Translations under genes and position numbers: made by a program | Notes under the pieces: model-generated | The model's database searches: none | What the model was told of the DNA's origin: nothing | Seen by the model: only the letters and a program-made list of their open reading frames with translations | In this document: positions 3,001 to 63,755 of the stretch, one piece after another | How positions within the stretch are numbered: the stretch's first letter is position 1 | How the letters are laid out: each line of letters begins with the position of its first letter | NCBI RefSeq assembly: GCF_029873635.1 | Contig: NC_080421.1 | Location: forward strand, 38,420,617 to 38,484,616 | Source of the DNA: Malania oleifera | Lineage: Eukaryota > Streptophyta > Magnoliopsida > Santalales > Ximeniaceae | Length of the DNA stretch: 64,000 bases | Direction: 5' to 3'

Positions 3001-4690
3001 TTTAAAGGCTATGAGAGGGGGTCAGGGTATCACACCTTCAGTTTGCTGATGATACTATCTTCTTTAGTATCATAAACCCTCTATGAATATTTTAGGTCCC
3101 CTTCACGTTTTCAAGAAGGTATTTGGGCTTAAGATTAATATGGGGAAAATCGGTATCGCAACTATCAATATGCCTGTTGAGAGTGTTAGGGAGTTATCTA
3201 CGGAGGTGGGATGTAGTGTTTTGGGTTGACCACTGTCCTATCATGTGGTTCCATTGGGGGGGAACCCTAGATCAACTAGCTTTTCATATCCTATTTTGGA
3301 AGGGGTTTCCAAGAGACTGGATGGATGAAAAGGAGCTCTTTTTTCTCTTGGTGGTAGAATAACACTTATCTAGGCTTGTCTTTCTAGTATCCCTTTATGT
3401 TTCTTTCGATTTTCAAGATTCCGGCGAGGGGTAGCTAATAAGATTGAAGATTATGAGGGATTTCTTATGGTCGAGGGTAGGGGGTTTTAGGGATCATTTG
3501 GTAAGTTGGTGAGCGGTGGATAGATCTAAACAGAAGGGTAGTTTCAGTATTGAAAATTTGATGTCTAAAAACATAGCCTATTTGGCTAAATGACTTTGGT
3601 GGTTTCCACTAGAGATTTCTTCTTTGTGGCATTTAGTTGTTAAAAGTATGAATTAGACAAGAATGGGTGGGATACCACTTAGAGATTTAGATGTTTTTAG
3701 GAGATTCTATGGAAATCTATCTCTTAGAGTTATCACCTCTTCATTCCCCATATTAAATTCTTGGTGGGAAGATGTAGTAATATCCTTTTTTGGAAAGACC
3801 TTTGGTTGTGGAACGTAGTTTTGCCCACCTCTTTTCCACGATTGAGCTCAATGCAGGATGGTTCCATTTCTTCTTTTGTAGTCGATCCAAGTAGTCCTTT
3901 GCCTTCTTGGGACTTCCACTTTTGTAGATTGTTAAATAATAGAGAAATGGTAGAGCTATCCTTTTTGCTAATCTTATTGAATAATTGCCATTTTTCTTTA
4001 GAGGAGGCAATGCGGTCTTGGTCTTTGGATCCTTTAGGGATATACTCATGCAAATCTTTTTGTGCTTTTTTCAATAGGTCTAATTAACCTTTTCCTCTCT
4101 ATAGCTCCATTCGGAAGGCCAAAGTCCCCTTTAAAATCAAGGCTTTTATCTGGTTGGTTGCACTTGATAGAATTAATACCAATAACTTGCTACAAGGTTA
4201 GGAGACCTTTGAAGGCTATATCTCCAAACATATGTGTTCTTTGTTTTAATTCCTCAGAATCTTCATCGCATTTGTTCATTCATTGTGACTATGCCTAACG
4301 GGTTTGGAATAAGTTATCTGATATTATAGGCGAATGTTGGGCGAGTTCTGAGACACTGAAGGGCTTTTTGGCAGTGTCTTCTGCTGGTTTTGGCAGGAAA
4401 ACAGGAAGGGCAGTGCTCTGGAAATGGGCTTTTTTTGCAGTATTTTGGGGGCTGTGGATGGAGCGTAATGCACGTGTTTTTCTAGCGAAGAAGTCTCTTT
4501 TTCTGGTTTGGAAAAGATAAATTATTTGGCTTCTCTTTGGTGTGTGGGACAAGGGAATCTTAAGGGGGTAAGCTTTTCTGATATTCAGCCCAATTGGCGT
4601 TATATGTTGGAATGTTGGTGTTGCTTTTTCTCTCTCTTGTTTTGTAGTTTTCTGGTTCTTCTTTGTGTTTTTTATTTAGAGAGATAACAT
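1..4690 (+). mobile_element. Decayed L1-like LINE (non-LTR retrotransposon), 5' end outside window
   Basis: This is a degenerate plant L1-type LINE. The first 700 bp look like the C-terminal part of ORF1, with a Gly/Arg-rich GGRGGRGRGRG stretch near 331-370. ORF2 starts at 1120 with MKIVSWNVRGLG, the usual start of the apurinic-type endonuclease. Reverse transcriptase traces follow: FEKAYDKVN near 2855-2885 and FADDTIFF at 3042-3065. The C-terminal zinc-binding region (CVLCFNSSESSSHLFIHC) lies near 4228-4290. Many frameshifts and stops break the reading frames, and the segment between the two RT motifs is too short, which suggests an internal deletion. The element should cut its target and prime reverse transcription from the nick, but this copy is dead. 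It sits in sense orientation opposite to SMC1, probably inside a large SMC1 intron. The 3' boundary is approximate and I found no clear target duplication. Confidence 0.88.
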
Positions 4691-26900: not shown

Positions 26901-27880
26901 TAATAACCAAATCAAATTTCTGCATAATACCAATGCCATTAACCCTTCGACCCCCCTTCTTCTCCCTCGGGAACCTCACAACATTAAAATCACCACCTAT
27001 AATCCACCTAGGCACATAAAAGCCAGAGACAACATAAAGCTCATCCCTAAAAGAATCCCTAAGAGTTGGTCTAGAAGGATCATACACAAAGAAAACCCAC
27101 CATTGACCCTTGTCTCTAACTTCCAACAAGACAAAAAAAATTCTGCTAGACTATCTACAAGAACGTGTATACAGCAACACGAGTATGCCTCCCGCGGACC
27201 CTTAAGAAGGTACATAAACCCAATCCTTACTGCGACCTTCCCAAATCCCTCTAACAACCTCCCCATCAACTAAGTCAAGCTTAGTCTCCTGGATTAATAT
27301 AGCATCCAGAGAGTTCCTGAGCAAAACCTCCCTAACCAGACTTCTCTTCCTAACATCCCATAGATCCGTTACATCCCAACTTAAAATCTTCATAACAAAA
27401 CATGTTTGCCCCCTTTCCTGATACCTTTACCACCCCCATAATTGATGTAAGAAATTAAACTCTTTAATTCTTCTTGCACCTTCTTTTTTTCCCAACTCAT
27501 ATGTACTAGGACTCATCCCCAACTTAACCTTAGCTTCAGCAAGACACTAATTTCAAACCCAAGTCGTTTAGAAGTTCATTTGGGTCTTTAAAATCTCTCT
27601 CACTATTCCCTAGACCAAAATCAAAGGCACTACCCCAACAAATCCCTATTTATGACATAAAGCATCAAAAGGAGAAAAGGACTGAACAAGAAGGGAAAGA
27701 TTACCTTTTCTAGCTTCCGAAGAATTCAGATCATCAGATCAAATGGCTATCTCTTCATCAATTACCCTTCCCAATAAAAGAAGGAATAGCAACAACATCC
27801 ACCTTATTAGAAATAGGCTCAAGAAACAAATTTAACAAGCTAAAATGTAATTGGGCGGGAATAGAAACATGTTGATCTCA
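23983..27880 (-). mobile_element. Near-full-length L1-like LINE in SMC1 intron 1
   Basis: ORF2 starts at 27393 on the minus strand with MKILSWDVTDLWD, the same endonuclease start as the LINE at 1120. The endonuclease core (IGGDFNVVRFPREKK near 26940-27000) is next, then a fragmentary RT, and then the C-terminal zinc region near 24300-24420 with CVLRFNCSESAPHLFLHC. The element ends in a 12-13 nt T-run at 23983-23995, its A-tail. Several stops and shifts disable it. It runs in the same direction as SMC1, so its tail signals could be read in the SMC1 transcript. The 5' limit is approximate; no target duplication was found. Confidence 0.88.
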
Positions 27881-34675: not shown

Positions 34676-36335
34676 TGTTAGCCTTAGTGGCTACACCATC
34701 ATTGTTTAATGTGTTTTGATGATATTAACCTATATGTTGTTCCTAATGTTTTCCTATCTTTGCAGATCATGTTTAGTACATGTACTCGTACATGAATTAT
34801 TGGATCGAAGGCAAAGATCGGACCGAGTAGACGTCAAGAAGGAAAGATCAAATGGACACGTACTCGGAATGACCCAAGCATAACCAAAGAAAGCTTAATT
34901 GTAGAATTATTTGTAATAAGAGTTGTGTGAGGTAGTATGTTTTGTAACTCTTGCGAGTGTGTTTCTTGCATGATTTCTGAGTAAGATTTGAGCAAAACAC
35001 ATGCATACTAGGACGCATGAGTTTATAGGATTGCACTAAACACATAAACACAAACTCACCTTTCATAACTTTCTAAGTTAAAACAAGAGTTTGTCAAATA
35101 AATCTTAAAACTCAATATGTTTTCAAAGGGACAGGTTTTTAACATCCTAGTTTTAAGAACATTTTTATACGTAGTCCCAATTGTGTTAAAACAAGTTTAA
35201 TGTCCTAAAGGTTCAAAGAAAGTCGAATATATTTACAAAAGGACATACTAAGCATATAAGTTATCAAAATGGGTTTTCAAACGTGTTGTATTAATTAAAA
35301 TATCTTATATTCAAAAGGAAACTCATTTGAACAAGTTTTAATCTTCATTAAACTTAATATATTTCATATAATTTTGTCCAAGAATGATTTGAGTCATTAA
35401 AACACTTTTTGACAAGGAAAAACAAAGTAATCGTCACTGCCGTAGTGCAGTCTTGAGTCCTATACATCTTACGGTATTTTGGGCATAACTTTTTTCTAGA
35501 AAATTCCAAATGGGACGATCTTCGTGTCCCTGGAAAGCTAAGACATAATGCCACAACTTTCATTTTGGTGACTTTTTTCTAATTCAGGGACCTCGTCGAT
35601 GAAATTTAGATTTCGTCGACGAATTCTAGGCAGAAGCGCCCCAACGGGCGGAAAACGGCTAGTTTGCTAAATAAAGTATTTTTTCTTCCCCCTAACGACT
35701 AGTTAACGGCTCCTAAGGTTCTTGGGCTATAAATACAAGCTATTATACTTGTATTAATAAGGTTTTGAAGGTCTTTGATCATTGTTAGTAAAAAACATCA
35801 TTTTATACAAAATCTAACACATTACATATTAGTTCTTCATTACATGTGCTCATTCTCTCTTGCTCACTTATTGTGAGAATAGTGTGAGGTTTGAGTTGTA
35901 AATCATATTTGCTCATTGTAAGGAGCATTCTTTGTAATCTTTCATCTTCTTGTGAAAGGTTCTTTGTGAACCAAGTTGTAAGGTTCTTTGTGAACCGAAT
36001 CAGTAAAGGCTCTTTGTGAGCAGTAGGGATTTGTTCCCAAGTTTGTAAGGCTTGCTCCGCTGTGGAAGGAGCGGTTATAGTGGATTGTAGAATCCTTGGC
36101 TTGGTGCTAAGGCGTGGACATAGGTTTGGTGCCGAACCACGTAAAAATACCGGTGTTGTTCTTTCTCTCCCTTACACTCTTTATTTTATATCTTGTGCAT
36201 GATTTATATTTATATTGCGATATAATTTCTTGTATCTTGCAAAGAGTTTTCATTTTGTAGAAAAATACGTATTCTGCGAAAAGAGTCTATTCACCCCCCC
36301 TCTAGACTATATACTCCAGGTTGGGACTTCCAACA
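34676..36335 (+). mobile_element. Solo LTR (1660 bp) of a large copia-type element
   Basis: The segment starts TGTTAGCC and ends CTTCCAACA. Perfect GATTG duplications flank it at 34671-34675 and 36336-36340. No internal domain is present, so it is a solo LTR left by recombination between two LTRs. A TATA-like TATAAATA lies at 35728-35735 and, about 105 bp before it, the perfect palindrome TTCGTCGACGAA (35612-35623). Near the 3' end is CTATTCACCCCCCCTCTAGAC, as in SIRE/Maximus-like LTRs of plants. It interrupts the RNase H region of the antisense copia. Confidence 0.92.
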
Positions 36336-39300
36336 GATTGGAAGATGTTGCTATAATCGTCTATTTTACTAATTTCCAAGATATAACAGTTTTTCGTTAA
36401 GAAATACATATCCAGTTTGAGATTTATTATTATGAGGATCAAATAGATATCTAGTATCTGCATATCCTACTAGTTGAGATTTGGAATCAAATGAGTCGAA
36501 TAGACCCAAATCAGACGTACCTCTCAAATAACGTAGAATGTGCTTAATTCCAAGTTATATCTTGTTAGTATATTTACAGCAAATGTAATGTCGGGTCTTG
36601 TACAATTGGCTAGATACATCAAAGAGCCGATAACACTTAAATATGGTATTTTAGGCCAAGTAATTCCTCCCCATCATTATGAGGTTGAAATAGATCCTTC
36701 TTAACATCAAGTGATCACACCATCATTGGAGATCCCAAAGGATGAATTTTGTCCATATAGAATTGCCTTAATACTTTTTCCGTATATTTAGATTGATGAG
36801 CAAGAATTCCGCTATTTACATATTCAATTTGTAGGTCAAGACAATATTTTATCTTTCCTAAATCTTTCATCTCAAATTCCATCATTAAATAATTAGCAGT
36901 TTTAGTGAACCCTTCAAGAGTCCCAACTGAATTCAAATCATCAACATAAATAGCAATTATAACAAATTCGGATTCTGATCTTTAATAAAAATGCATGGAC
37001 AAATTGGATCGTTTATGAATCCTTCTTTCACAAGGTATTCACTTAATCGATTGTACCACATGCATCCAAATTGTTTTAATCCATATAAAGAACGTTAGAG
37101 TTTAATTGAATATAAATTTATGGGTTTTGCTTCAAGCAATTTAAATCCTTAAGGACTTTTATATAAATTTCACTATCTAATGATCCATATAGGTATGTTG
37201 TTACTACGTCTATAAGATGCATGTTCAGTCATTTAGCGACTGCTAGCCCAATTAAGAATCTGAAAGTGAGTCCATCCATTACCGGAGAATATGTCTCCTC
37301 ATAATCAATTCAGGGTTTTTGCGAGAAACCTTATGTCACAAGCCTTACTTTATATTGAGTAATTTCATTATTTTCATTTCGCTTGTGCACAAATACCCAT
37401 TTGTATCCAACGGGTTGGACATCTTTTGATGTTTGGACTACATGTCCAAAAACTTCTCTTTTTAATAGAGAGTTAATTCTGATGTGATAGCCTTTTTCCA
37501 TTTTAGCCAATCACTTTTATATTGACATTCATTAACAGATTTAGGTCTAGGATCCTCATTACTTCTAGTAATGTCAGTAACTACTGTATATGCAAATATA
37601 TTGTTAACAACAACTTTATTTCTATCTTACATTTCTCCTGTGTAATGAATTGAGATCTCATAATTTTTTCCAGGTACCTATCCCTTTTCAAGGAATGTCA
37701 CTTTAGAAGTTTTCTCTGTAGGAAATTCCTCTTCAGAAGGTTTCATAATAGAGATTTCATTTTCAGGAAAAACGGGTTTGTGAATGTCGAATGGATTATC
37801 CACCTCTGTAACCTCTTTTGGAGTGTTTGCAGATTTCAATTCTTTCCTTCAAAGAGTTTTATCTTTTGTACCAACAAGCCTTCTACGCTTAACTTGTAGT
37901 TTAGGTTCATTAGTTGGTTGTTGTCCTTCAAGGACATTAATACGTACTAGAACATTTGTAGCAGGTATATGAGATTTTAATATGACATTGGTATCTGCAA
38001 AAGAATATGGTAACTAATTTGCAATCCCTTGCAAATGTATACTCTTTTGAACTTCAAGTTCACTTTGGTTTGTGTGAGAATCTAAATGAGATAAACTCAT
38101 AGCATTTCATGTGATTTTAGGCTGTGCTTCATACACTGATTTGCTACCCCTAATATAGGAAATACTAGTTCATCAAAATGATAATCTTGAAATCATGTTT
38201 TAAACAAATCACCTGTTAAAGGTTCCAGATATATAATAATAGAAGGGGAATCAAAACCAACATAGATACCAAGCTTACGTTATGGACTCATTTTAGTTCT
38301 TTGAGGAGCGGCAATAGGAACATATACTGCTCAACCAAAAGTTCTTAAATAAGAAATATTAGATTGTTAACCAGAAACTAATTGCATGGGTGAAAGCTTA
38401 TTGTAAGCAGTTGGCCTTATACGAAATAAACATGTAGCATGAAGAATAACATGTTCCCAAACAGATAAAGACAATTTGGTTCTCTTAATCATAGGTCTAG
38501 CAATGAGTTGAAGTCTTTTTATAAAGATTCAACTAAACCATTTTGTGTATGGGTATGAGTAACGAGATGTTCAACATCTATTCCAAGTGTTATGCAGTAG
38601 TTATCAAAAGTTTGGGATGTAAATTTATCAGCATTATTCAAATGAATTGATTTAATTGGATATTCGGGAAAATGAGTTCGTAATCCAATTAGTTGGGAAA
38701 GAAGTCTAACAAATGCAATATTATGAGTAGAAAGTAGAGAAACATGTAATCATCTAACAGATGCATCAATTAAGATCATGAAATATCTAAATGGTCCAAA
38801 TGGTGGATGTATTGGTCGGCATATATCACCATGAATTCTTTGTAAGAAATTAAGAGATTCAAGACTTACCTTTGAAATGGATGATTTGACAATTAATTTT
38901 CCTTGAGAGCAAACAGTACTCATGAAAACACTTGATAAAAAAATCTTCTGATTCTTTAGTGGATGACCATGTAGATTCTCAATGATTCTTTGCATCATTA
39001 CATCTTCAGAATGTCTAAGATGATCATGTCAAAATGTAAATAATTTTGGGTCATTGCACTTATGGTACAAGACATTATATGATTCAACTACTTTAATATT
39101 TGTATAATATAATCTAGAAGATAAAGTTGATAATTTTTTTAAAATTTGTTTCTTCCTAGAAACAATAGAAGTAATATAAAAGAATTCTTTACTACCTTTA
39201 TTTGTAGTTTTAATGTGAAATCATTGAGTCTTAAATCTTTAAAATTTAACAGATTTCTTCTAAATCTATTGGAATATAAAGTTTCATTAATTTGCAATAA

Positions 39301-49186: not shown

Positions 49187-50713
49187 CTGTAATGTTTGCA
49201 CATTGAATAAAGGTTTAAAAAAATAGGCAAAAGAAAAAAACAAAAGGGGAGGGGGGGTTTCTATATCTTTTCAAATGCAAGAAAAAGGGTCATGCAATTG
49301 GAACAGAAAGAAAACTGAAACCAAAGTGACCTGTCATGAATAACAGAGCGGGAGGCAATATCAATATACAGATTAAAATGGTAATTAAAACATGAATGAG
49401 AAACTAAGACATGGACAAGAAACAAAATAGTGCTTCTTACATGCTCCCTTCCTTTTTTAAGTAAGACTCTTCTCCACCAGCAAAGCAAAAAATAATTTTA
49501 TTTTATGGTTCAGTTGGCTTTAAAAGCAACCAAACAAATGAAATCAAAGAATAAAGTAGCAAAAAAATAACATGCAGGCACATTTTGCATTTTGTAAATT
49601 TGCCGGCCCCTAAGCTAAGATACTATAATTGTCTTCCAGCCTCAAGATCCTCTTGAATTCCAGGTACCTGATCTCATGGTGTTGTTGGCCCTAGGTAGCA
49701 ATTAAGCATCAACATAAGCAAAGGTGACGGCAAACTTTAGAGACAACAAGTTTTTTTTTTTCTTCTTTTTATTTTTTTTTCCATGAAAGAGGAATGGAAT
49801 CTTTTATGTTGCCTCAATAAATCAAACATGAGTCTAATACTGTAAATACTTAAAAACAGAAATGATCAAGGCACACAGTATTCCTTGCATTTTTATTTCT
49901 TAATTTTTTTGGGGGGAGGGCCAAGGACAAAGAATGAATAAATAATTAAATCAATCAAGTTGGTTAATTCCTTCGGTGCCCAAATTTCTTGTCAATTTAC
50001 ATTTTTTTGCCCTAGTTATTTTATCATATTATATCACCCATAAATGCAGTGGTTTGTTTCCTTAATATGTGCATTCAAAAACAGGCAACTATAGAAAGAA
50101 AATTGACAGCCATAAATATTACGTGATACAAAGACTGCTTCCTACTAACAAATAATGACGCGCACTGGAACATGTTTATATACGTACATACAAAATTATA
50201 ATAAAGAAACAATGTGCTTGACACAGGAAAACCTACATAAATAAGGGGAGGAAAAGAGCTTGAAATTGGAGTTTTAAGAGGCAAAAAGAAGTCATAAGAG
50301 ATCAAAAAGCCACCATGGACTTTTATGCCAAGGAAAAGCACTCATTATATGTTTGATGCATGAGAATTGAATTTAATTGGTTAGTCTATTTCTACAAGTG
50401 GGTCATTCGATTCTTTATTTCGTTTCATTTTATACTGCTCCGAAAAAAATATAACCCTGGCATCGAATTCTTAAACATAAAGGGTAATATTTAAATTGGC
50501 CGATTGCCTAATATAAGCATGAACAGCTAATGCGAATTGACGACTTTAATAAGAGAAAGCACTCTCTCATTAGCAATTTCAAAGTAGTTTTGATGCCATT
50601 AAGAGCCAAAACTAATGCAATTTCACTTATGAAACGACCAAAAAAGGTACCTCGAAAGAGACGCGCAAACAACACCAAAAAGATTAAACAAGAAGCGAAA
50701 AGAAGCAACTCAC
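49187..50713 (-). other. TOL intron 1 (1527 bp)
   Basis: The donor GTGAGT is at 50713-50708 and the acceptor AG at 49188-49187. No transposon was recognised; this intron is compact compared with those of SMC1. Confidence 0.88.
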
Positions 50714-51199
50714 CATATAAGTTTGGCGAAACACGGGCAAATACGCGAGGTCCTCGGACTCACCCCAAGCCCTGATCAACTCCCAAGCCCTTCTCCTATT
50801 CCCGCTATCAGCCTGTGGATTGTCAATCATCTTCACCATCTCCTCCAAAACCTTCTCCGAAGCCACCTCCGAGAAAACCTTCTCGCAGTTCATGGCACAG
50901 GCCTCCAGCAGCTCCAGGCTGAGGCGCTGCACGGCCGCGTTCTTACCGGACATCTTCTTCTTGAGTGCGCGAAGGACCTCGGCGCCGCTGAACTCCTCAC
51001 CGTTAATCATGGCGCAAATCCGCATGTTCATCCCCCAGTTGGGCTCCCGCAAGGCCTCCGACGTCGCCTCGTCTACCATCTTCGATTCAGGCGTCGGGGT
51101 TTGCAGCAGATCCTTCATCTTCGTGCTCATCATTCGACCCATTTGAGCGCCCTGATTCTTCAAGCGCTCGCCCAATGAAGCCAGCTTCAATTTGTCCAT
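50714..51199 (-). CDS. TOL2: TOM1-like (TOL) protein, coding exon 1 (VHS domain)
   Basis: The exon begins with the ATG at 51199 and encodes 162 residues, from MDKLKLASLGERLKNQGAQM to PVFRQTYM, ending at a GTGAGT donor in phase 0. Residues 40-162 form the VHS domain: VDEATSEALREPNWGMNMRI, SLELLEACAMNCEKVFSEVA and RRAWELIRAWGE are signature blocks of plant TOL proteins. The MDKLK start and the text around EPNWGMNMRIC resemble Arabidopsis TOL2 more than TOL1, from memory of the family; the paralogue is therefore less certain than the family. The exon is clearly GC-richer than its surroundings. The start codon lies 139 bp from a transposon end. Confidence 0.93.
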
Positions 51200-51330
51200 T
51201 ATTCAGCACCAGAGGTACGGGAACAAACCCTAGCTGCGGTCGATTTTGAGCTCTTGGGGTGCTATTGTGTCCTCTTCTGTGTAGAGAGTGAAAACTCGAA
51301 ACAGGGAGCGTCCTTCGCCGAGGTGAGATG
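51200..51330 (-). promoter_or_regulatory. TOL 5' leader and core promoter remnant
   Basis: Only about 130 bp of apparently native sequence separate the start codon from the hAT-like insertion. The native flank resumes at 55520 after the transposon. No TATA box is obvious. The transposon must lie within the 5' untranslated region or the proximal promoter. Confidence 0.6.
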
Positions 51331-52156
51331 GCTGCACGTAGGTGTGGTAAAACGGGTTAACGGGGTCGGCCGACTTATAAACGGGCAGGGGTTAAATGGA
51401 CTTTGATAATGGGTGGCTAACGTATAAATCGAACGGGGCTTATTTAATGAAAAGATTGTAAATGGGTGATCCGTTTTAAAAATAATTTATATATTTTAGT
51501 TTTTTCTAAAGAAGCATTCCTTATTTTTTTTTATCAAATCTTAAAAAAAAAAAAACATAAAATGTGAAAAAAAAAAAATTATTTGAGAGTGAGAGCCGTG
51601 AGGGAGACTGTTGAAATAATTGGTTATATTCTATTTTGATAATGACAAATACCTTGGTACTAATACTTGTTTAAAATTTGTATGTAGGTTCACTCTACAC
51701 ATGAAGTTGAATAGATTTCTTTAATATGATGGTGTATGGTGATTCCAAGGGAGATTAAAGAATATTATGCTTAATTTGTACTTGTATTTTTTATATTATT
51801 CATTCTAGCTTGTAATTCAATATGATATGTAATAACTCCATCGTGCATTATAGGACTTCATGCTCAATTTGTCCTAAATTGAACTTAGGTTCCTACTCAC
51901 TTAGTGCACAAGACCCCTCTACACTCACATGTCAGCAGGGGTAAATTTAAATTAAAGAATGAAACTTAAGCTTTAAATCATAAGGGTTTCGGCGACCGAA
52001 CCAGGCAAGTCAAATTGTTTCAGTCGATCGAAACGTTGAATGGTCAAAAAGTTGACACGATTTCGGGCGACTGAACTCAAATGATCTGAGTGTCCACTGT
52101 CGATCGAAATCAAGCCCTAGCTTTTTCCAACAACTCAGGCACCCGAACTTCACGTT

Positions 52157-52387
52157 CAAAATACCCTCGGGCAACCGAACTTGAAACCAGACGACCGAAC
52201 CTCGGATAGAATGGAAATCGCCTTGGTCAACAAATTGAACCCTTAATTAGGCACTCGAATAATAGAAAAAGTGAATTTTGAAGTTCGGGTGCCTAATTAA
52301 GGGTTCGATTTGTTGACCAAGGCGATTTTCCATTCTGTCCGAGGTTCATTCGTCTGGTTTCAAGTTCGGTTGCCTGAGGGTATTTTG
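52157..52387. repeat. Long inverted repeat (arms 103 and 104 bp, 24-nt loop)
   Basis: The left arm 52157-52259 and the right arm 52284-52387 are reverse complements with only a few mismatches. The loop is 52260-52283. The arms contain four CGAACC-type motifs. The loop sequence AGAAAAAGTGAATTTTGA (52264-52281) recurs exactly inverted at 52432-52449. Confidence 0.93.
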
Positions 52388-52398
52388 ACCAATGCTCA

Positions 52399-52660
52399 CC
52401 TCCCAATATAAATGTCCATATAACGACCTCCTCAAAATTCACTTTTTCTAATGGAAAATCGCCTTGGTCAACAAATCCAGTCTGTCGACGAGTGCTTGCT
52501 TTTTTAGTTTTCTGATCTCTTTTCCTTTTTCTCCTATTTTCCCTTTTTCCTGATATAGCTGTCATATAACGTTGGCAGTGGTATGAGAAGGTCGTTATAT
52601 AGGCATTTATATTGGGAGGTAAACATTGGCAGTGGTATAAGGAGGTTGTTTACCTATTTA
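52399..52660. repeat. Second inverted repeat and local direct repeat
   Basis: CCTCCCAATATAAATGTCC with its continuation to 52432 pairs with 52589-52619 in reverse. GGCAGTGGTAT-type units occur at 52573 and 52627 as direct repeats. Also, AATGGAAAATCGCCTTGGTC at 52451 repeats 52210-52228. Confidence 0.85.
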
Positions 52661-52689
52661 TCATGAATAAAGTGTTTGTTTTGTAACCT

Positions 52690-52925
52690 GTGTGGTTGAT
52701 TAGTCCTGTGTGGACATATATGTTGTGTGATTGGTTTGTCCTGTATGGACCATGTAATCTGTATGATTGGTTAGTCCTGTGTGGACCAGTCTTGTGTGGA
52801 CATGTATATTGTAATTGACAGTTCTGTGTGGACTAGTCCTGTGTGGACGTGTATGATGTGTGTGTTAGAAGTCCTGTGTGGACGATTACATATTGTGTGG
52901 ATGTAGACCCTGTGTGGGTATGATT
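52690..52925 (+). repeat. Degenerate tandem array of CCTGTGTGGAC
   Basis: Nine or more copies of a core CCTGTGTGGAC or close variants (CCTGTATGGAC, TCTTGTGTGGAC, TTCTGTGTGGAC, CCCTGTGTGGGT) recur with spacing of about 15-45 bp. The array lies inside the gypsy-like part. Confidence 0.8.
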
Positions 52926-52949
52926 GAAGACTGTATGTTTATCTTGTGT

Positions 52950-53769
52950 GGATTGATTGTGGTATGCATATATGTGTGAAGCTCTATGAAATAAATATTG
53001 TTGGCTATGTGTAACTTTAATTAATTAAGTATTTAGGGTAAAGTAGATTACTCCACCCGAGGGCTTGCTGAGGAAGGCAAGTACTCTGGTAATTAATTGT
53101 GGATACCAGAGTAGAGGGAAGCCACTTGTATGGGTGGGTGACCTTCCCTATTCTTGGTGACTACCTGGATACACAACCCGAGGGATTAATGAGAAAGGTG
53201 AGTGCCTTAGTGTTAGTACTAGAGCTAAGAGAATCTACTTGTATAGGTGGGTAGACTTCCCTATTCTTGGGAATTATCAATCAAATATACATGTATGTGA
53301 GCATGTGATTGGATGACAAGACGTTGACCATGATATGATTATGAGCGTGATATTTTAGCTACTAGTGTATCATGAATGCGATTGTATGGATATTTTGATT
53401 ATATATTAAACACTTCAGTCACACACTGTTATAAACTATTTCTTCCTTACTAAGTAGTGTCTCACCCTGTCGATGATTTAATCTTTTCAGGTTATCTAGG
53501 TGATTGAACTTAGATAGCTCCAGGGCGGGGTAGTTTTTGTGAGTGGTACTAGAATGTTTTGTATTAAATTTTATGTTTAACATATTTAAAATTCTGGTTG
53601 TAAAATGAGGAATGAGTTTGTAATTATTATGGATCTGCGTGTGTAAATATATAACACTAGCATATTTTGTTTGAGGTTATTTAATTGTTTCCGTTGCATG
53701 AATGGTATTAGAGACGCGTGTTGGTCTTATAACACTCCGGGCCCCACGTGGCGGGTTCGGGGCATTACA
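52950..53769 (+). mobile_element. 3' part of a Ty3/gypsy-like LTR nested in the solo LTR
   Basis: The segment ends ACACTCCGGGCCCCACGTGGCGGGTTCGGGGCATTACA in character: a CGGGTTCGGGG-CATTACA terminus is common in Tekay/Del-like plant gypsy LTRs. Before it comes TTACTAAGTAGTGTCTCACC with TTTTCAGGTTATC, also usual there. The left end of this LTR could not be fixed because of the rearrangement between 52260 and 52660; no duplication of the following CATAC was found on the left. Confidence 0.6.
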
Positions 53770-55519
53770 CATACACTCTTCCTTTGTCATTCCTTTGATA
53801 AATCAAAATTCCTAAGTGTGTTTTTAACTAATTCCATTTGCTTAAAAACTCTCCTTGTTCTAGATTGATTTATTGTTTTTATTGAGAGTTTTAGTCAAGG
53901 TTTTCCCCCCGGTTTAACTAATAAATCTATGTGTGGGAAAACCTTTGTAACTAGTGAGTCTTTGCATCTTTGTTGCAAGACTCGTCAAGCTTGAGTGTTT
54001 TTTATTGCCCAAAATCTTTTTCACAAGCATATTTTTCAAATATCTCTTGAGCTATTATTTTGATAAAATTATTTTTGAGATATTTTGAATACTCTAGTTA
54101 GAACTCTTTGAAACTTGTGGTGATTGATTAATATCAATACTTTGTTTCAAAGATTGCTTGAAAATACACTCCGGAACTTGATTGTATATTTACATTAGAT
54201 TGAGTGTTAGCACAATTCACTTGCACTGAGCATAATTACTGTCATCAGTGAGTGCATATTTACCTGGATTATATTGTAGTACATATCTGCTTGTGTAGAA
54301 TCATATTTGCTTGTACGCAAAAAATTATTTGATTATTTGTTGTATTCTCGACGTGTGTTCGAAAGAAGGAGACTTGCCTTGTAAAAAGTCTCGGATTGGT
54401 TTTGACCCGATTAGGAAAGTTAGGTGTACCATCCTGGTAAGGTGTTGCAAACGGTGCCGCTCCACCCCTGAAGTGAGCCTCAGTGCAATCCTTGTGCGTC
54501 TGAGCCAAGTTGGGGATGTAGGCAGTATTGGACGGACCCCGATATCATATTTGGTGTCACTCTTACTTTTCCTACATTATATTCTGCATTGTGCTTGATT
54601 TAATTTTCTTACTGTATATACTGCATATCTGATTGACACGGTATTGTATCTAGTGAAGAAATACTAAAATTGTGGTGCATGAACTGAAAATTGTTTAATA
54701 TATCATATATGCAATTTCATACACACTTAGACTGCCCCTAGGTTGTGTCATACTGTTGTTGGATGAGTTCAACCTAGGAGGAAATTTTTTAATCTCCAAT
54801 TCACCCCCTCTTGGGATTGCACCAAAGTTAACAGAGACTAAGAGTGAGAGGGAGACTGAGATTGAGAGGGAGATTCGAAAGGGAGACTGAGAGTGAGAGT
54901 GAGAGGGAGAGGAAGACTGAGGGTGAGAAGGAGACTAAGACTGAGGGTGAAAGCTGATAAGGAGACTGAGAATGAGACGGAGATGAGTCAGATTGAGACG
55001 ACAACGAGTGACTGAGTGAGATGGAGACAACAGCGAGTGACTGAGTGAGATGGAGATGAGAGAGACCAGATCTGATCTGGCATATTAGACCAGAGACGAG
55101 ACTCAAGAGTGATATAGGGATGTGAGTGAGTGGTGATGACAATATGGAGAGCTGCGAGAGGATCTGCAGAGGAGAGAGCAACGATGAGAAAAAGAGAGGA
55201 GGGCAACGGCACAGATAAGAGGGAGAGGCTTTTGCTCATGCTGGAGTGCTGGCAAGTGCTGGTGTTGCAATGTTGCTATTTCTAGGTTAGGTTTCAAATG
55301 CAAGTTGAGGTTAGAATATATATAGATATATATGCAGATAAATGGGTCACCTGGCCGGTGTCCCGACCCGAACCTGCCTAACCTATTTAATAAAAAGGTT
55401 GGGTCCAAGTTGGCGTGTTAATAAATAGGTTAGCTTGCATTAATCCAAACTTGACTTAAATGGGTGGGTCATGGGTCACTCATCAAGTTTCGACCTATTT
55501 TGCCACCCCTAGCTGCACG

Positions 55520-55984
55520 ACCCTGAAGCATGAGAAATTATTACATCGAGTCTATCATTAATCCAATAGACAACATACAATACATTGTATGAGCAAAATA
55601 TAATTATTTTTTTAACAAATAAAAAATATAATTACTTTTTTTTTGAATAAAAATTATGTATACAAAAATTATTATTAATTTTTCTTCCTAAAATAAATTA
55701 CAATGAAATTTATGGTTAAAAATTATTAAAAAAAAAAGAACTTAGAGTTTATATAATTATTTAGCAAAAAGAATTCCAACTTTAAGTGTTAATTTAAATA
55801 GTAGTTTTAATAGATGTATTGATTGTGCATTGAAATGTTTGTATTTTATTTAATAGAAAATGTTGTAAAGTTAGTAAGCTAATTTTTGTTACAAAAAAAT
55901 TAATGAATATATTTAATTTTTAGACATCTATAAAATTATTTAATCATATGATTTTATAAATATATTTTAATTTTTTTGGCCTAA
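55520..55984. other. AT-rich DNA beyond the hAT-like element
   Basis: This is the displaced upstream flank of the TOL gene. It has no gene and no recognised repeat. Confidence 0.5.
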
Positions 55985-56237
55985 CTATAAAATTTTATAA
56001 AATATAAACAACAACAACAAGCCTTAAGTCTTAGTAAGTGGGATTGACTGCATGAATCTTTTTTTGTCAATTTACCCAATCAAGAGTATTTTCCTCTATT
56101 ATATTAAAGGTTATTAAATCCTTTCTCACTATTTTATTCCAAGTTAACTTAGGCCTACCCCTACTCCTTTTCATGTCAGATACAATAATTAACTCACTTA
56201 TTCTTATAGGTGCTCTATTAGGCTTGCATTTTAAATG
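55985..56237 (-). mobile_element. RTE-type LINE 3' end, cut by a copia LTR
   Basis: Minus-strand reading gives MKRSRGRPKLTWNKIVRKDL and ends in AACAACAACAA on the plus strand, the reverse of the GTT-repeat tail. It is the same class as 28046-28305. Its 5' side is interrupted at 56238 by the LTR of the large copia element. Confidence 0.75.
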
Positions 56238-56526
56238 TGTTGACTTTTTGAGTTTGATCCCTATTTTGATGTTAACAAAGCACAAGTATCTTATGTGTGT
56301 TTTTAAGTGCTTAAGCATGTTTATAATTCAAACACACACATAAGGGAATGGGAAATGGAAGCCTGAAGGACTGAAAGACCATCTCAACTTGGCGTATTCC
56401 ATCAAAAGAGTAAAGAAGAGGAAGACACATATTTTTGATTGTAAATTGCATTTAGTTTTTGGTCTGTAATAATGCACATCTTGCATGATGTAATTGAAAG
56501 CTCAAATGACCATAACCTGACCTTTT

Positions 56527-58642
56527 TGTTAGCTTTGGTGTATTCCCAAAAAGGGGGGGGGGTGGATTGGTATTTAAAATTTTTCTCCTAGGTTAATCTA
56601 TCCAGAAGCAGTATTAACACAACTTAGGGTCTGTCTATGCAATTTCCAAATGTGCAAATAAATATGATGTGGAAATTAAATCATAAGCATCATTCACACC
56701 ATAACAAACACATGTGGTAAATATAAAGTGCATAAATATAAATAGACACACGATATGTTATCGGGGTTCGGCCAACTGTGCCTACGTCCCCGCCTCTAGC
56801 TCGTAAGCCCGAGAATTCCACTAATGACTCACTTAACAGTGGCACCTAATACAATCAGGTCAATTACCGCAAGGCTGACCTCAACTTAACTAGGTCAATT
56901 AAGGGACTGCCTTCAACCAACACGCCTTAACAGGATGGCGTACCTAACTCTCCTAATCGGGTCTAAGCCAATCTGGGACTATTTCAAAGGGCTAGTCTCC
57001 CTCTTTAGGCCCGTGTCTGGAAATACAGCAGTATTTGAAATACAACGAAATGGTACAGTGATTATGCTTTCATGTAAAGCAGATGTGTACCTAGATACGC
57101 GTAGTATACTTAATCAATCAAATGCACATCAACAATGTAGGTAGATGTAAGCTCAGTGATGTGTATTTTTGTGCAAGCTACACTCAACAAGATATGATCG
57201 TTAACATGCTCAAGAGTTTTCTAATCAAGTTATTTCTTTGAAACAGAAATATCAAGTCTCAATAATAATCAAGGTTTTAAAGATGCTGCAAATATTCAAA
57301 ACAATTCAAAATATTTTCTTCAATGTAATATGCTCAAGAGTTGCTTAAAGGAATACTATAGTTTGTAGAAAAATATTTTTGCACAACAAAATCAAGCTAT
57401 TGGACACTAGCAATAATAATGCAAATATCCTCAAGCCTATGAGTTTATCCCAACACAAGATTTACTATATTCAAATCTATGAGAAAAACTTTACTAAACT
57501 CCTCAAAATAATATCAAACAATCAAGCAGAGTAATGGGAGTATTAGCACCCTCTAATAAACACTAGCCCCCTCAATATGCTCTCATACTAATAAAATGTA
57601 TCAAGTGAATAAAGATATGAGAGTATTTGGACAAGAATAGGAATTTGAGATAGAGAGAATTTTGTAAATGATTTTCTGCAAATCTCATGTTAATCCTCAC
57701 AAATGAACTCATATTTATAGACCAAGGTAAAAATACAACCGTTTAGGACATAGGGGTCATAATTAGAATTGTTTTAAAACCAATTAAGAAAATTAACCCC
57801 GTCTAACAATTTTTAACCCCGGTAAAAAATAAGTAACCTGAGAAGGTTAGGGTGGCTGAACCTTGGTTCGGTCACCTGAACAGACTCAGTCAGAAGAGCC
57901 AATCTTGAAGGTTCGGGTGCTCGAGTCTGGGCTTGGTTAGCTGAACCAAAGACAGAAACTTTCTGTCTGTGGTTCTGGTGCCCGAAGCTGAGTTCGGTTA
58001 ATTGAACTTGCAAGTTCGGTCGCCCGAGGTTTTTTTGAATGCGATGGTTCGGGTGCCCAGGGAAGGTGAAAAGTGACCTTCTAAGGGTTCGGTCGCGCGA
58101 GGATGATAAGGTCTTTTAGGTTCGGTCGCCTGAAACCTGGTCAAACTGTTGACTTCTCAACAGTTTGGGCGCCCGAGGAGTTTTGAACTCCTGGGGTTCG
58201 GTCGCCCGACCTCTCTCAATTTTTGCAATTAAGTCCAATTTTTAATTCAATTATTTCCCTTAATAATATATGTGATATGGGGACTATTTTGTGCATTTGT
58301 GTAGGGAGCTAAGATCTTTTCAAGTACACCCAAAAACCTGGCGTCAGTCGACCGAAGGGTGCCCTAAAGTCATTTGGTCCCTATGGTCATTCTACGGTTA
58401 TTTTGAGCTTACAAGAACTTACATGCATGACATACAGAGATTATTACAGATCGTATGCCTAGTTACTATTACAGACCCATATTACAATAATTGATTTGAC
58501 AATACAAATTAAAGTCTCCAGGGTCTTCATTTCTCTTTAGGTTGCCGCATGCCATTATGAGAACCTGCACACAAATTTGACAACCATTAAATACCTTAGT
58601 GTTTGTTATCATCAAAACAGGGTATGACCCATAGGGTCAACA
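56527..58642 (-). mobile_element. Inverted solo LTR (2116 bp) inside the 5' LTR
   Basis: On the minus strand it starts TGTTGACCCTATGGG at 58642 and ends ACCAAAGCTAACA at 56527. Flanks are CTTTT (56522-56526) and CTTTC (58643-58647), a 5-bp duplication with one change. A TATA-like TATAAATA is at 57719-57712 on the minus strand. Its palindromic motif array is at 57840-58212. Confidence 0.85.
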
Positions 58643-58742
58643 CTTTCATCGAAAAATCTTTTCTAAATGGCTAAATTCTCACAAAGGTTTTTAAAATACT
58701 TTTGGGTCAAAATAAGGCTAAAACTTAGGTTTTTAACTAACC

Positions 58743-59107
58743 TTGGTCAATTGGCCCTTTCATAGTTATATTCACCTTAGTCAACCGACCCTTGACATTT
58801 GGCCTATTTAGAAAGCCTCAACCAACCGACCACTTTTGCTCATGAATAGCCAAGCTGACCGACCATAGTATTTTGGCCTATGTTATAAAGCTTTAGCCGA
58901 TCGAGCTGTATGCTTTAAAGACTCCCAGTCGACCAGGATTGTTCACTTGGCCGACTGGCTTTTGAGAATAGTCGACCGAACTTATGAAGGTTTGGGAAAT
59001 CGCCAAGGTTAGCCGACCGGTACCTTCCTCAGTCGATTGAACCCCATGGAAATTTGAATTTTGACCTAAGGTCAGCCAACCGACGAAGCCCTCGGTCGAC
59101 CAAACCT
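58743..59107 (+). promoter_or_regulatory. U3 array of about twelve palindromic GTCGACCGA motifs
   Basis: Variants include AGTCGACCGAAC, AGTCAACCGACC, AGCCGACCGG and GGTCGACCAAAC, spaced about 20-50 bp. The array ends about 105 bp before the TATA box at 59211. Role unknown; listed for its constant position. Confidence 0.7.
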
Positions 59108-60708
59108 CTCGGGTCTGACTATTTTTCAACACTAAAACGTGTTTAATTTTTTAATTAAAAAATTTTAAAATACCCTTCGTGTCCCTAATGGTCATTTTTC
59201 TTGGGAGCCCTATATATACCCTTCTCATAAGCATAATTAGTAAGGTGATTAGTTGAAAAATTCTCTTAAATATTTTTTGCTCTTTTTTCATCTTCAAAAC
59301 TTTAATTCATACTCTTTTACTCTCATTTATTTCAAAATCATTTTTAAGAGAACTTTGATTATTTCTTTTACTCTCTTCATTAGCAAATTTACTGCTCTTG
59401 AAGATTGTTTAAAGAATCATTTATTTGGGCATTTATTCTATCATTTAAAGCATTTACTCCCACTTAAGCTTTTGTTTGAAAAATCACATTTAAGAGTAAG
59501 CTTAAAGTTTCTCCACATATTTTTCTTGATAAATATTTTTGGAGAAACTTATTCTAGCTTGTGGATCATTTTGCACATTTATTGCAAAGATTCAAAAGCT
59601 CACTTTTTCTTTATTGTAACATCTATTTTGTGCAAAAACCCTAAGGATCTCCCATATTCATTTTTGAAATATATATATTTTTTTGGAGAAAATCTTTGGG
59701 TGAGTCAAGAGAACCTTGAGCATATTTTCATATACATATCTTTGCTTGAAATGTCTCTCATGTTTTGATATTAAGAAAATCATCCAAAAGCAAAACCCTA
59801 GGTTCTCTTACATTTTTATTGAAGGATATTTTTTGGAGAAATATTTATTAGGGTTCAATCTTTGAAGTATTTTATCATATACTTCATTTTCAAAGATTGC
59901 AAAATTATTTTGAGAAAAACACCCATACTCTACTAAGCATAAATCATTTTACCTGAGAGTGCCTTTTAAAGCTTCAATTTGTACACATTTGCTTATTGCA
60001 GAAGCATTTTGTTTGTACATAAAATTTCATATCTTTGTATTCCAAGCATGGCTTGAAGAGGAAGTGCATCATCTTGTAAGGTGTACCGATTTGGCTCAAG
60101 CCTGGTTAGGTGAGTTGTGGTGACTATGCCTCGTAAGGAGAACCAGTTTGGCTCAGCCTGGTGAATTGAGTTGAGGTGACTCAACTTGTAAGGAGAACTG
60201 GTTTGGTTTTGCTCGTAAGTGAGTTGAAGAGGCTCTGCCTCGTAGGGAGTATTGTAAACGGCGTCGCTCCGCCCAATTAAGTGAGCAAATAGTGAAATCC
60301 TTAAGATGAGGCTTGAGGCGGGGACGTAGACAGGATTGATTGAACCCTGATAACAAATATTGTGTCTGCTCTTTCTGTCCTGCATCTATTTAATTTCCGC
60401 ACTTTAATTTCTACACATGTATGCTTAATTATTTATTGTCTTGATTGTTTTACATACATGCTTTTAATATTTGTGATATTGGTGTTTGCATAGAAAGACC
60501 CTAGGGTGTGTAATACTGATTGTGGTTTAAAATCAAACACACTTAACCTAGGAAGGAATTTTTTTATGTACCCAATTCACCCCCCTCTTGGGAATACACC
60601 ATTCTTGTCAATGGGTATTAGAGTCTCGTTACAAAAAGCTTAACTGCTTATGTTAAAGATCACAATGGCTTAATTCAGTATATTCCCATTTAATGAGGGA
60701 TGGTCATG

Positions 60709-62693
60709 TACCAGGCTATTAGAAATGGTGTATTCCCAAGAGGATGGGTGAATTGGAAATTTAAAATTATTTCTTCCTAGGAATAACTAATTCAATAGTA
60801 GTATACCACAACCTAGGGTCTGTTTAAAACATCTACCAATTCAACAAATAAATTACTGAGCAAATATATAATCAATTAAAGCAATCTCACTATATCAAAC
60901 ATTTAGAGTAATAAATATTAACATACAAGTGCATAAAGTAAATTGCAAAAAATAAAACTGACACCAAATATGTTATCGGGGTTCGACTAATACTACCTAC
61001 GTCCTCACCTCAAGCTCACAAGTAAGAGGATTCACTAAATTGTTCACTTGTGGATGGAGCGACACCGATTACAACACCTTACAGGATGGTATACCTAGTT
61101 CTCCTAACCGGGTCTGAACCAATCCGGTGCTCACCTAATCGAGTCTGAGCAATTCGGGATTATTCACAAAACTAGGCTCCCTCTTTCAACAACTTTTTGG
61201 GAATACAACAAATGAATATTTTTGTACAACAAAAATATGGTTCTAAGCAAGCAGATGTGTACAATAATATGCTCAAAAATACACTCACATATGATATGCA
61301 AATAAGCTCAATGTGAGTGTGTGATTTTCACAAAAATAATCTTTGAATAAAAATGTGTATGATGAGTGCTCAAAGATTTTATGCCCAAATAAGAAATTTC
61401 TTCAAAAATATTTTTCTAAATAAGGTGTTGGAGAATTTAGGGTTTATGACTCAAAAATATTTTCGCAAGTACAAGCAAATGAGCCTTTGAATCTTGCAAT
61501 GAATGTGCAAGATTCACAAGCAAATACTATTAACTCCCAAGAATATTTATCAAATGAAATATGTGGGAGAAACTAAAATAATACTCTCAAAATAAGATAT
61601 AAAAAATATATGTAAGATGAAAGTAAAAACAATTTTGGATTGTAAAACGAATGCCCAAAACAAAGTTTAAAACTATGCTCTCTTGAAATATTTATCAAAG
61701 AAATGCTAAAAGAGAGTAAAAATTAAGGATAAAATTTGAGAGGATTTTTGGGCTAATCTACTTGCTAATTATGAGTAATGAAGGGGTATATATAGAGCTG
61801 GGCAAAAATATAACCGTTGGGGACACGCTGGGTATTATTAGAAAAGATTAATTGATTTTTAAGTGTGTTTAAGAATTTAAAAATGGCTTGACCTAAGAGG
61901 TTTAGTCGACCAAAGCTCTGGCTAGTTGACCAAACATGGGAGTTCGGTTGACCAAGGAGAATTGGCGGTCGGTTGAGCACTCATAGGAAATTCAAATTTT
62001 AAACGGTTCAGTTGACCAGGGAAATCAACGGTCAACCATTGCTGGGTGATCAGAACCCTTCGTAAGTTTGGTCGACCAGGATATGAGGTCGGTTGCTTGT
62101 TCATATGATTCGGTTGACCATTAGGGTTTTGAACTGGAGGCGCCTGTCCACCAAGGCATAAAAGTTGGGCAAAGACATAAGGATGGTCGACTGTGGGCTT
62201 TAGAACAAAAACTGGCCGGTCGGCTGAAGTTCGGTTAACCAAGGTGTTTTGAACTGTAAATGGTCGATTGACTAAGCTGTGCAATTTAACCTGAAATGTA
62301 GTGTTGGTCGATCGAAGTCTGTAGTTTTAAAATTTTACCTTAAGTTTGACCTTAACAAAAAATCTTATGTGAAAAATTGTTGGTCCCTAGGGTCTATCTA
62401 CGGTAGTTTGAACTTATCATCCACATCATACATGCCATGCATTAATTACAGACCAAATTAAAAACAATAATGCATTTACAAAAAAAAAAAAAAAAAATTA
62501 AATGTCTTCAATCTTCTTATTCGTGTGTCTTCATGGAATGTGCTAGATGCATATGATCTTGGAGTTTTTTCTGGCTTCCAAGTCCCTTGATCTTATGTGT
62601 GCTGAATTTTAGACTTGTTCACATACTTAAACATACATAAGATACTGGTGTTTTGTTAGCATCAAAATAGAGATCAGACTCAAAAAGTCAACA
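60709..62693 (-). mobile_element. Inverted solo LTR (about 1985 bp) between primer site and gag
   Basis: On the minus strand it starts TGTTGACTTTTTGAG at 62693 and ends near CCTGGTA at 60709. CATGC follows at 62694-62698 and CATG precedes at 60705-60708, an imperfect target duplication. The LTR end is mutated (TA instead of CA). A TATATATA box is at 61787-61794 and the motif array is at 61900-62320. Start and interior resemble the surrounding element, so it is a relative. Confidence 0.78.
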
Positions 62694-62698
62694 CATGC

Positions 62699-63504
62699 CT
62701 TTAGTATTTTGCGGTTTTGATTACACCTTGTGGAAACAAAGAATTAGAGTGTTTATAAAATCAGTGGACTGGAGGGCCCGACAGGTGATTGTTAAAGGAA
62801 TTTGTATGCCTCTGAATGAAAATGATATTAGTCTAATGTGAGAAAATTCAAATGCCATGGACTTATTATATTATGCCTTAGATTCTAATATCTTATATGA
62901 AATTATGGCATGAAAATGTGCGAGAGGCATTTGGGTGGATTTGGAAAAGAGGTATGGAGGAATTGAAAAGAGGGAGACCACCACTCGAGAAGCTTCAAGC
63001 TCAAATGGTAATGTGGTGGCAAATTGTGAACAAATTGCTCTAGTCAATGAGGAGGTACATGTTTTATGTGATGATTCCTGTGCTAATTCTTATGTTATAC
63101 CTTGTGATGAATCATCTAATGCCTCTTGTGAAAATTTTGCTGAATCTAGTAGCATTACTATTAATAATGCATGCATTGATTCTTGTAATATTTTTTGTAT
63201 TAATTCTTGTGTTAAATCATGTGCATATGATATTGAAAACATGGCAACTTATGAGAAACTGCGAAAGAAATTCATTAATGCTCATAGGTTTCTAGTTAGG
63301 ATGTCTAAAAGGAAAACTTTCTTGAAAAATGAAAATAAAAGGTTAGCAAAACAATTAGAAGATCTAAAAGAATATCATGCTATCCTTGAGAAGAAAAAGA
63401 TTGAGAAAGTTTTGAAAATTACCTACTTAGAGGATGAAATAGATGATTATTCTAGAGTTACATCCAAAGCCAATAACGAAAAGAATAATCATGATAAACC
63501 TTAG
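62699..63504 (+). pseudogene. SIRE-like copia gag, N-terminal and coiled-coil part
   Basis: Reading resumes after the solo LTR with PLVFCGFDYTLWKQRIRVF, the usual gag N-terminal block. In-frame TGA codons at 62839 and near 62911 break it. The open part from 62935 (189 residues) has a Cys/Ser/Asn-rich stretch at residues 38-100 (CDDSCANS, CIDSCNIFCINSCVKSC), then a Lys/Glu-rich coiled coil from about residue 105 to 180. Gag would form the particle around element RNA in the cytoplasm. The cysteine-rich insert is unusual for copia gag. Confidence 0.75.
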
Positions 63505-63536
63505 GAAGTAAAAAGAAAAATCTGTTCAATAAGGGT

Positions 63537-63755
63537 TTGAACTCATCATATAAATCCCATAATCATTTGTGTGTCTCATCGAGCAAACATTGGATTAGTA
63601 ATCATAGTCTTTCACGTATATACAAAACTTGCTTACCTTGTAAAATGAAAGGGCATAATCGATATAACTTTCCATTTAGATGTGCCCAAGGCAAAGATAC
63701 GGAAATGATTTGGGTAATTAAGAAAGCAAACCCCTTTGGACAAAAGGAAAAATAG
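63537..63755 (+). pseudogene. Gag C-terminal zinc-knuckle remnant
   Basis: Reading gives CLPCKMKGHNRYNFPFRC, a CX2CX4H pattern like the CCHC knuckle of copia gag but with the last cysteine displaced, followed by KDTEMIWVIKKANPFGQK, usual after the knuckle in SIRE-like gag. A stop and frame change separate it from the preceding part. Confidence 0.65.

Follow-up and report, generated by a model that had tools for sequence, protein, structure and literature searches.

A 64,000-nucleotide stretch of the Malania oleifera genome (contig NC_080421.1, positions 38,420,617 to 38,484,616, forward strand; hereafter the window, to whose own numbering the positions below refer) carries large long terminal repeats (LTRs) with arrays of short palindrome-like boxes, and raises the question of which kind of element these arrays belong to and what maintains them. 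The initial annotation knew of no described element of this form, and had suggested selection on dimeric protein binding, hairpins or clustered CG methylation. We find that the four main arrays are RM-box cis-regulatory arrays of Sirevirus-type Ty1/copia LTRs, a kind already in print. Their boxes tend to be oriented one way and to be spaced by whole helical turns, and the box-to-box geometry outlasts the sequence of the spacers. As judged from the sequence, the arrays are probably enhancer arrays at which a putative host DNA-binding protein would occupy one face of the helix, with RNA hairpins as a by-product.

RM-box arrays in Sirevirus-type LTRs

The LTRs with box arrays were labelled A to D, and a more distant LTR with a palindrome pair was labelled E. 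The window LTRs form a nest, in which solo LTR B lies within LTR C and LTR A stands beside LTR C. The parts of A to D are listed below, the poly-C signals having been assigned by eye.

51609..54833, plus strand: LTR D, solo, with ends TGTTGA...TTAACA and the 5-bp target duplication GAGAC on both flanks
51987..52259, plus strand: RM array of LTR D, 7 boxes, spacings 32, 43, 33, 39, 32 and 20
54796..54815, plus strand: poly-C integrase-type signal of LTR D
56238..60613, plus strand: LTR C, interrupted by solo LTR B and forming the 5' LTR of an element; CA end, then ATGGGTATTAGAGT
58743..59107, plus strand: RM array of LTR C, 11 boxes, phase coherence 0.74 at 10.5 bp
59210..59218, plus strand: TATA box of LTR C, 107 bp past the last box
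60572..60592, plus strand: poly-C integrase-type signal of LTR C
56527..58642, minus strand: LTR B, solo, within LTR C; flanks CTTTT and CTTTC, alike at 4 of 5 bases
57840..58212, minus strand: RM array of LTR B, 10 boxes, plus an isolated box at 58345-58354
57712..57720, minus strand: TATA box of LTR B, 128 bp past the last box
56545..56569, minus strand: poly-C integrase-type signal of LTR B
60709..62693, minus strand: LTR A, solo, adjoining LTR C; low-coordinate end uncertain; flanks CATGT and CATGC, alike at 4 of 5 bases
61900..62320, minus strand: RM array of LTR A, 13 boxes
61787..61795, minus strand: TATA box of LTR A, 107 bp past the last box
60735..60756, minus strand: poly-C integrase-type signal of LTR A, eroded

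Boxes were counted with the pattern CRGNCGNCYG, allowing up to two mismatches, which gave 13 boxes in LTR A, 11 in LTR B (including the isolated one at 58345), 11 in LTR C and 7 in LTR D, many of them imperfect. All four arrays were found where the initial annotation had placed them, and its estimate of roughly 8-15 copies per array held for A, B and C and was too high for D by this pattern. For the enrichment test in the window we used the RM motif CGGTCGACCG, which was fixed in advance from the literature as the Vitis RM box (Table 3 of PMC2829016, in the part of that article available to us). With up to two mismatches this motif matched the window 21 times, against a mean of 1.15 over 20 dinucleotide shuffles, and 19 of the matches fell within the arrays (five in D, four in B, three in C and seven in A); the remaining two lie at 58345, in LTR B before the array, and at 51363, outside. 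The count of each array exceeded the maximum of 1000 shuffles of that array, and at three mismatches it was equalled by two of 1000 shuffles for D, three for B and none for C and A.

Further features of these LTRs are those of Sireviruses. RM boxes with the CGG-CCG core occur in all four (13, 11, 11 and 7 boxes), a CCAATTCACCCCCCTCTTGGG-like poly-C stretch is present in B, C and D and in eroded form in A, and a cTATAWA box follows the RM cluster in A, B and C; no TATA box was found downstream of the array in D. The LTR/internal junction CA/ATTGG/TATCAGAGC is retained only by LTR C, in a worn form with 13 of 16 bases. A linker and 3' LTR of the A-D elements, the site of the Sirevirus AGGGGGAG polypurine tracts, were not identified in the window, and four reading-frame pieces within 62671-63752, past LTRs C and A, where gag/pol of the lineage was looked for, gave no Pfam match above the cut-off.

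In the sections available to us, Bousios et al. (2010; PMC2829016) describe palindromic 'RM boxes' in Sirevirus LTRs together with CpG islands and a TATA box, and tabulate 3-14 boxes per 3' LTR. The arrays found here likewise consist of CpG-rich, palindromic boxes in high copy number, located before TATA in the LTR's first half. The Vitis box of that account is the ten-base box seen here, and the poly-C signal and the CA/ATTGG/TATCAGAGC junction are found as well. The view that no such element had been described is therefore not upheld. The same sections mention box I of Tnt1, and leave the function of the RM boxes open: a common binding site for a single factor was not identifiable, and experiments were said to be needed.

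The boxes are not peculiar to the window. The genome searched comprises 1.494 Gb in 510 contigs, and the control for each word was the same word reversed: TTCGGTCGACCGAA occurred 3249 times, versus once for its control, and the published Sirevirus LTR/primer junction matched exactly at 8130 places, versus none. We chose an LTR sample by this junction, not by the box, taking the first 60 of 100 listed loci, which are a run along one contig and not a random draw; a custom regular expression for the poly-C signal near the LTR end split them into 41 Sirevirus-like LTRs and 19 others. The enrichment over shuffled LTRs that the initial annotation had proposed to look for was present in the poly-C part of this sample, where the 41 LTRs held 110 RM matches within 2 kb, against 2.9 expected, and 14 of them individually exceeded their own shuffles. 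The 19 LTRs without poly-C held 5 against 2.6, all in a single LTR (L073) whose poly-C signal has a decayed look. At three mismatches the counts were 234 against 41.0 in the 41, and 38 against 29.5 in the 19. A search for the best palindrome of each LTR yielded a member of a set of six related boxes for 26 of the 41 (CGGTCGACCG in 7, CAGGCGCCTG in 7, CAGTCGACTG in 6, CAGACGTCTG in 3, CGGGCGCCCG in 2 and CAGCCGGCTG in 1) and, among the 19, for L073 only. The remaining 15 of the 41 gave a different word as best palindrome, AT-rich in some, and several LTRs had a direct, mirror or scrambled control word, often a simple repeat, that outscored the palindrome. Furthermore, CRGNCGNCYG gave 220 sites in the 41 LTRs, against a mean of 18.9 (maximum 72) for column-permuted patterns and 53 for the reversed pattern.

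Orientation, helical phasing and position of the boxes

The 220 boxes of the 41 poly-C LTRs are more fixed on one side than on the other. At the positions outside the selecting pattern, position 7 is A in 78% and position 4 is mixed (T 43%, G 32%); the right flank begins with A in 76%, followed by A or C and then C, and the left flank is less fixed, with T at -1 in 57%. The right half, CGACYGAAC, is thus the better-conserved one, and in these LTRs it has 25 sense occurrences and a single antisense one; in window LTR A, no exact CGACYGAA was found. The two-fold symmetry that the initial annotation took to be kept is kept only in part. The two innermost bases complement each other in 103 of 220 boxes, compared with 84 (maximum 99 of 2000) after shuffling across LTRs and 107 after shuffling within LTRs, and the symmetry therefore looks like a trait of families that is not restored copy by copy. 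Many LTRs carry an asymmetric box, which departs from the palindromes in the available account of PMC2829016. Covariation between box halves within arrays did not exceed shuffles at box positions 2/9 and 4/7 or at flank distances 1, 2, 3, 5 and 6; the sole covariation found was at the flank bases 4 out, which pair-matched 81 times against 69.3 (standard deviation 5.6) in within-LTR shuffles.

Box spacings cluster near 21, 32-33, 41-43, 50-51, 63 and 72 bp. Phase coherence was maximal at 10.5 bp, reaching 0.464 for 33 sampled arrays (208 boxes), 0.441 when one array was taken per sequence cluster (9 arrays, 67 boxes), and 0.471 for window LTRs A-D (42 boxes; singly 0.26, 0.45, 0.74 and 0.59). 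When boxes were moved by up to 6 bp in 2000 trials for each of these three array sets, none of the 2000 jittered sets reached the observed value, and the coherence stayed at 0.445-0.506 when the three largest clusters were left out one at a time. The words CG, TG, CA, GAA, TTC, AAA, TTT and GTT outside the boxes in the same spans gave only -0.04 to 0.08. Among adjacent spacings of up to 60 bp in the nine representatives and four window arrays, 69 of 78 deviated by no more than 2.5 bp from a multiple of 10.5, where chance would give a fraction of 0.51. Permuted patterns that form arrays had a coherence of 0.31; when the test was repeated, 779 of the 1593 sites of permuted patterns overlapped real boxes, and none of the arrays of at least three sites was left once these were removed. 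Genome-wide, exact CGACCGAAC pairs 11-41 bp apart numbered 6421, against one in the control, and the first 100 listed had spacings of 19-24 (10 pairs), 32-34 (75) and 36-41 (15), with none at 11-18 or 25-31.

The geometry persists where the spacers have diverged. Equal-length spacers within one array were 0.372 alike, against 0.294 when shuffled (35 pairs), as expected from the initial annotation, according to which the spacer sequence is not shared; the boxes were 0.709 alike. The spacing series 33-43-33-40-33 (±2 each) recurred in 8 of 65 LTRs (60 sampled and five from the window) and arose in none of 2000 random placements of 16 sites in 600 bp; it was derived from the sampled LTR L038 and window LTR B, and these two are thus not independent evidence. 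L038 and window B share the series with spacers 0.37 alike (the better of two anchorings) and boxes 0.73 alike, and in other LTR pairs that share it the spacers are 0.35-0.72 alike. In eight close pairs of short-array LTRs, gaps of at least 8 bp were 19-21 bp long in 9 of 9 cases within the array, some of these nine being one event seen twice, versus 1 of 24 outside it.

The arrays also hold a position relative to TATA, as the initial annotation had stated for U3: the last box, or in LTR E the pair, lies 107 bp upstream in A, 128 in B, 107 in C and about 104 in E. In the sample, 30 of 33 arrays had a TATA box in range, at 126-133 bp (16 arrays), at 142-161 bp (nine), and at 107, 173, 182, 193 and 268 bp (one each), so that the last box ended 107-193 bp before TATA in 29 of 30. 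This measure differs from that in the available text of PMC2829016, where the distance from CpG island to TATA averages 37 bp. Of 3000 rigid shifts, 4 equalled the observed phase of the boxes to TATA for the sample (n = 30), and 47 did so for the representatives (n = 8).

A proposed protein array and its alternatives

One-way boxes at whole-turn spacings suggest a protein lined along one face of the DNA, and phasing together with orientation favours binding on duplex DNA. Of the three earlier ideas, protein binding is thus best supported, by helical phasing, orientation and position before TATA; the qualifier 'dimeric' is less well supported, as the box is asymmetric in many LTRs. In the mechanism that we favour, each box would be bound by a sequence-specific host protein through the conserved right half CGACYGAAC, the left half serving as a second, looser contact, and the protein copies, aligned on one face, would jointly drive or switch transcription from TATA. 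Inner and outer bases of the box may change among element lineages as the binding partner changes, and hairpins formed in RNA by the 3'-terminal U3 copy of the transcript would be a by-product usable by host silencing. The evidence leaves about evenly balanced the broader proposal that RM boxes are less palindromes than one-way sites for a plant DNA-binding protein, that the LTR promoter is a helix-phased enhancer in which the boxes keep helical register both among themselves and with TATA and their geometry outlasts sequence, and that the class E pairs described in the last section are a second such system. Repeated, partly symmetric U3 activator boxes are also known from the plant copia LTRs of Tnt1 and Tto1, although those are few in copy number and of other sequence.

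Orientation, helical phasing and the conserved spacing series are unreported in the available text of PMC2829016, in which a search for words on spacing, helix, phase or periodicity returned nothing on box spacing. A literature search for RM-box phasing likewise found no report, although it did not cover the 2016 maize paper and does not establish absence from print; a search that combined 'helical phasing' with the terms retrotransposon and LTR returned no papers, and word searches for tcgaccga and gtcgaccga gave nothing of apparent relevance. Phasing and orientation are therefore additional to the published RM-box accounts as far as the available texts go. They make the question of box function directly testable, since in a protein array an insertion of 5 bp should hurt and one of 10 bp should not. 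Sireviruses form a large share of some plant genomes, amounting to 21% in maize according to the part of PMC10760457 available.

Several observations weigh against the phased protein array. By CRGNCGNCYG, 8 of the 41 poly-C LTRs lack an array. LTR families share ancestry, and phasing in 33 arrays does not therefore represent 33 independent events. The listed CGACCGAAC pairs, dominated by spacings of 32-33 bp and in part related copies, fit periods of 10.75 (0.725) and 8 (0.686) as well as 10.5 (0.661). In the long-array family (five close pairs), only 2 of 19 array gaps were 19-21 bp long; over 125 pairs, many of them poorly alignable, indels per substitution did not differ between arrays (0.378) and flanks (0.420), and gap lengths in the arrays were no nearer to multiples of 10.5. 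Words shorter than CGACYGAAC are less biased in orientation (CGACYGA, 69 sense and 27 antisense; CGACCGAA, 23 and 8), and the phase to TATA within the window alone was not significant (255 of 3000 shifts, n = 3).

A hairpin RNA, arising from the 3'-terminal U3 of the transcript or from antisense transcription and feeding small-RNA production, might instead keep the palindromes, as proposed for maize Sireviruses; we consider this unlikely. Small RNAs are in excess on the palindrome clusters of maize Sireviruses (Bousios 2016, as cited in the available parts of PMC10760457 and PMC5311732), and the LTRs here resemble these in having a palindrome-rich cis region able to fold. Indeed, the hairpins of the initial annotation find support in RNA folding, which also counts against the protein array: the mean z over 13 arrays was -4.1, versus -2.0 in downstream stretches, and the covariation at flank distance 4 points the same way. 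Hairpins, however, predict neither a 10.5-bp phase nor odd multiples (32, 52, 73), the inner pair is non-complementary in 117 of 220 boxes, and the halves lack covariation at the remaining positions given above. Window arrays A, C and D fold weakly (z -0.65, -1.92 and -0.86), less than their own downstream controls, and the advantage for the element is unclear. The box here also differs from the maize consensus CACCGGACNNNGTCCGGTG (PMC10760457, available part), and its phasing suggests that duplex DNA is at least among the targets.

It is improbable that the arrays are CpG islands whose methylation state sets LTR activity, with the sequence as a mere CpG carrier. The observed/expected CpG ratio is 0.83 in arrays versus 0.46 elsewhere in the LTR, box windows are seven times denser in CpG, in part by construction, and CpG islands are bounded by RM clusters in the published elements, according to the accounts available. 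CpGs within arrays but outside boxes, however, show no phase (-0.039), and boxes are kept where their outer CpGs are lost (position 2 is A in 66% and position 9 is T in 58% of the 220). As many boxes read CAG..CTG in this way, clustered CG methylation, the third of the earlier ideas, is less likely to be the selected trait, and it leaves orientation and phase unexplained.

A still poorer prospect is that the pattern is a now functionless relic of tandem duplication, in which an original box was multiplied along with its neighbouring sequence. The two layouts (steps of about 21 bp, and 33/40-43 alternation) and the 19-21-bp units by which close short-array relatives differ suggest amplification; the spacers, however, are hardly more alike than chance beside far more similar boxes, and the spacing series survives where spacers are only 35-40% alike. 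Least probable is rotational nucleosome positioning, in which GC-rich boxes on one face would set the wrapping of promoter DNA: the box phase and a weak AAA and TTT phase (0.052 and 0.077) agree with it, but AA/TT/TA/AT in the spacers around the boxes show no peak near 10.5 bp (amplitude 0.029, versus 0.045 at 10 and 0.053 at 13), and it needs neither a strict motif nor a one-way orientation.

Class E pairs and neighbouring elements

The more distant LTR differs from A-D in its box.

34676..36335, plus strand: LTR E, solo, inserted in the remnant pol of a minus-strand copia and flanked on each side by the target duplication GATTG
35592..35623, plus strand: palindrome pair of LTR E, CTCGTCGATGAA and TTCGTCGACGAA, centres 20 bp apart; CTATAAATA at 35727

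The palindrome TTCGTCGACGAA lies at 35612-35623, as first annotated, with its sister copy CTCGTCGATGAA at 35592-35603. The pair has no match to the RM motif CGGTCGACCG, TTCGTCGACGAA lacks the CGG-CCG core, and CRGNCGNCYG gave one site in this LTR, apart from the pair. Poly-C is present, followed by TCTAGAC in place of CTTGGG. Genome-wide, ATTCGTCGACGAAT occurred 2990 times versus 3 in the control, and TCGTCGACGA pairs 11-41 bp apart 20,690 times versus none. Among 83 listed TCGTCGACGA pairs the only spacings were 19-21 (58 pairs) and 24-26 (25), with a coherence of 0.46 at 10.5 bp; the phase is weaker in 15 clusters of at least three boxes, with 0.124 at 10.5, 0.313 at 11 and 0.705 at 22. These class E boxes are without the CGG-CCG core, and their arrays form a second, unclassified set apart from the A-D boxes. 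Some class E pairs share their spacer with a second pair that lies 3904, 5520 or 6826 bp away (G000 C1, 1289153/1293057, 1473357/1478877 and 2678220/2685046, respectively), as if they came from the two LTRs of rather short elements. The copia pol remains that host LTR E extend over 36369-38749 on the minus strand, with an RVT_2 match at 36715-36981 (E 1.4e-9).

In the nest, the start of LTR A is 91% identical to that of LTR C across 68 bp, there is no blastn match between the arrays of these two LTRs, and LTR A was probably inserted into the element of LTR C. LTR D, longer than the other LTRs and with an inverted repeat inside, is probably interrupted. Its inverted repeats pair 52307-52334 with 52450-52477 and 52389-52434 with 52584-52629, and a stretch within 52281-53770 terminates in GGGGCATTACA, which we take to resemble the end of a gypsy LTR. 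A VHS-domain exon, presumably TOM1-like, lies at 50684-51202 on the minus strand (Pfam E 1.2e-22); its 5' end is about 0.4 kb from LTR D, which places the array of D about 0.8-1.1 kb from the gene start. Finally, 1225-3987 and 24462-27288 are an inverted pair of diverged copies with 72-81% identity.

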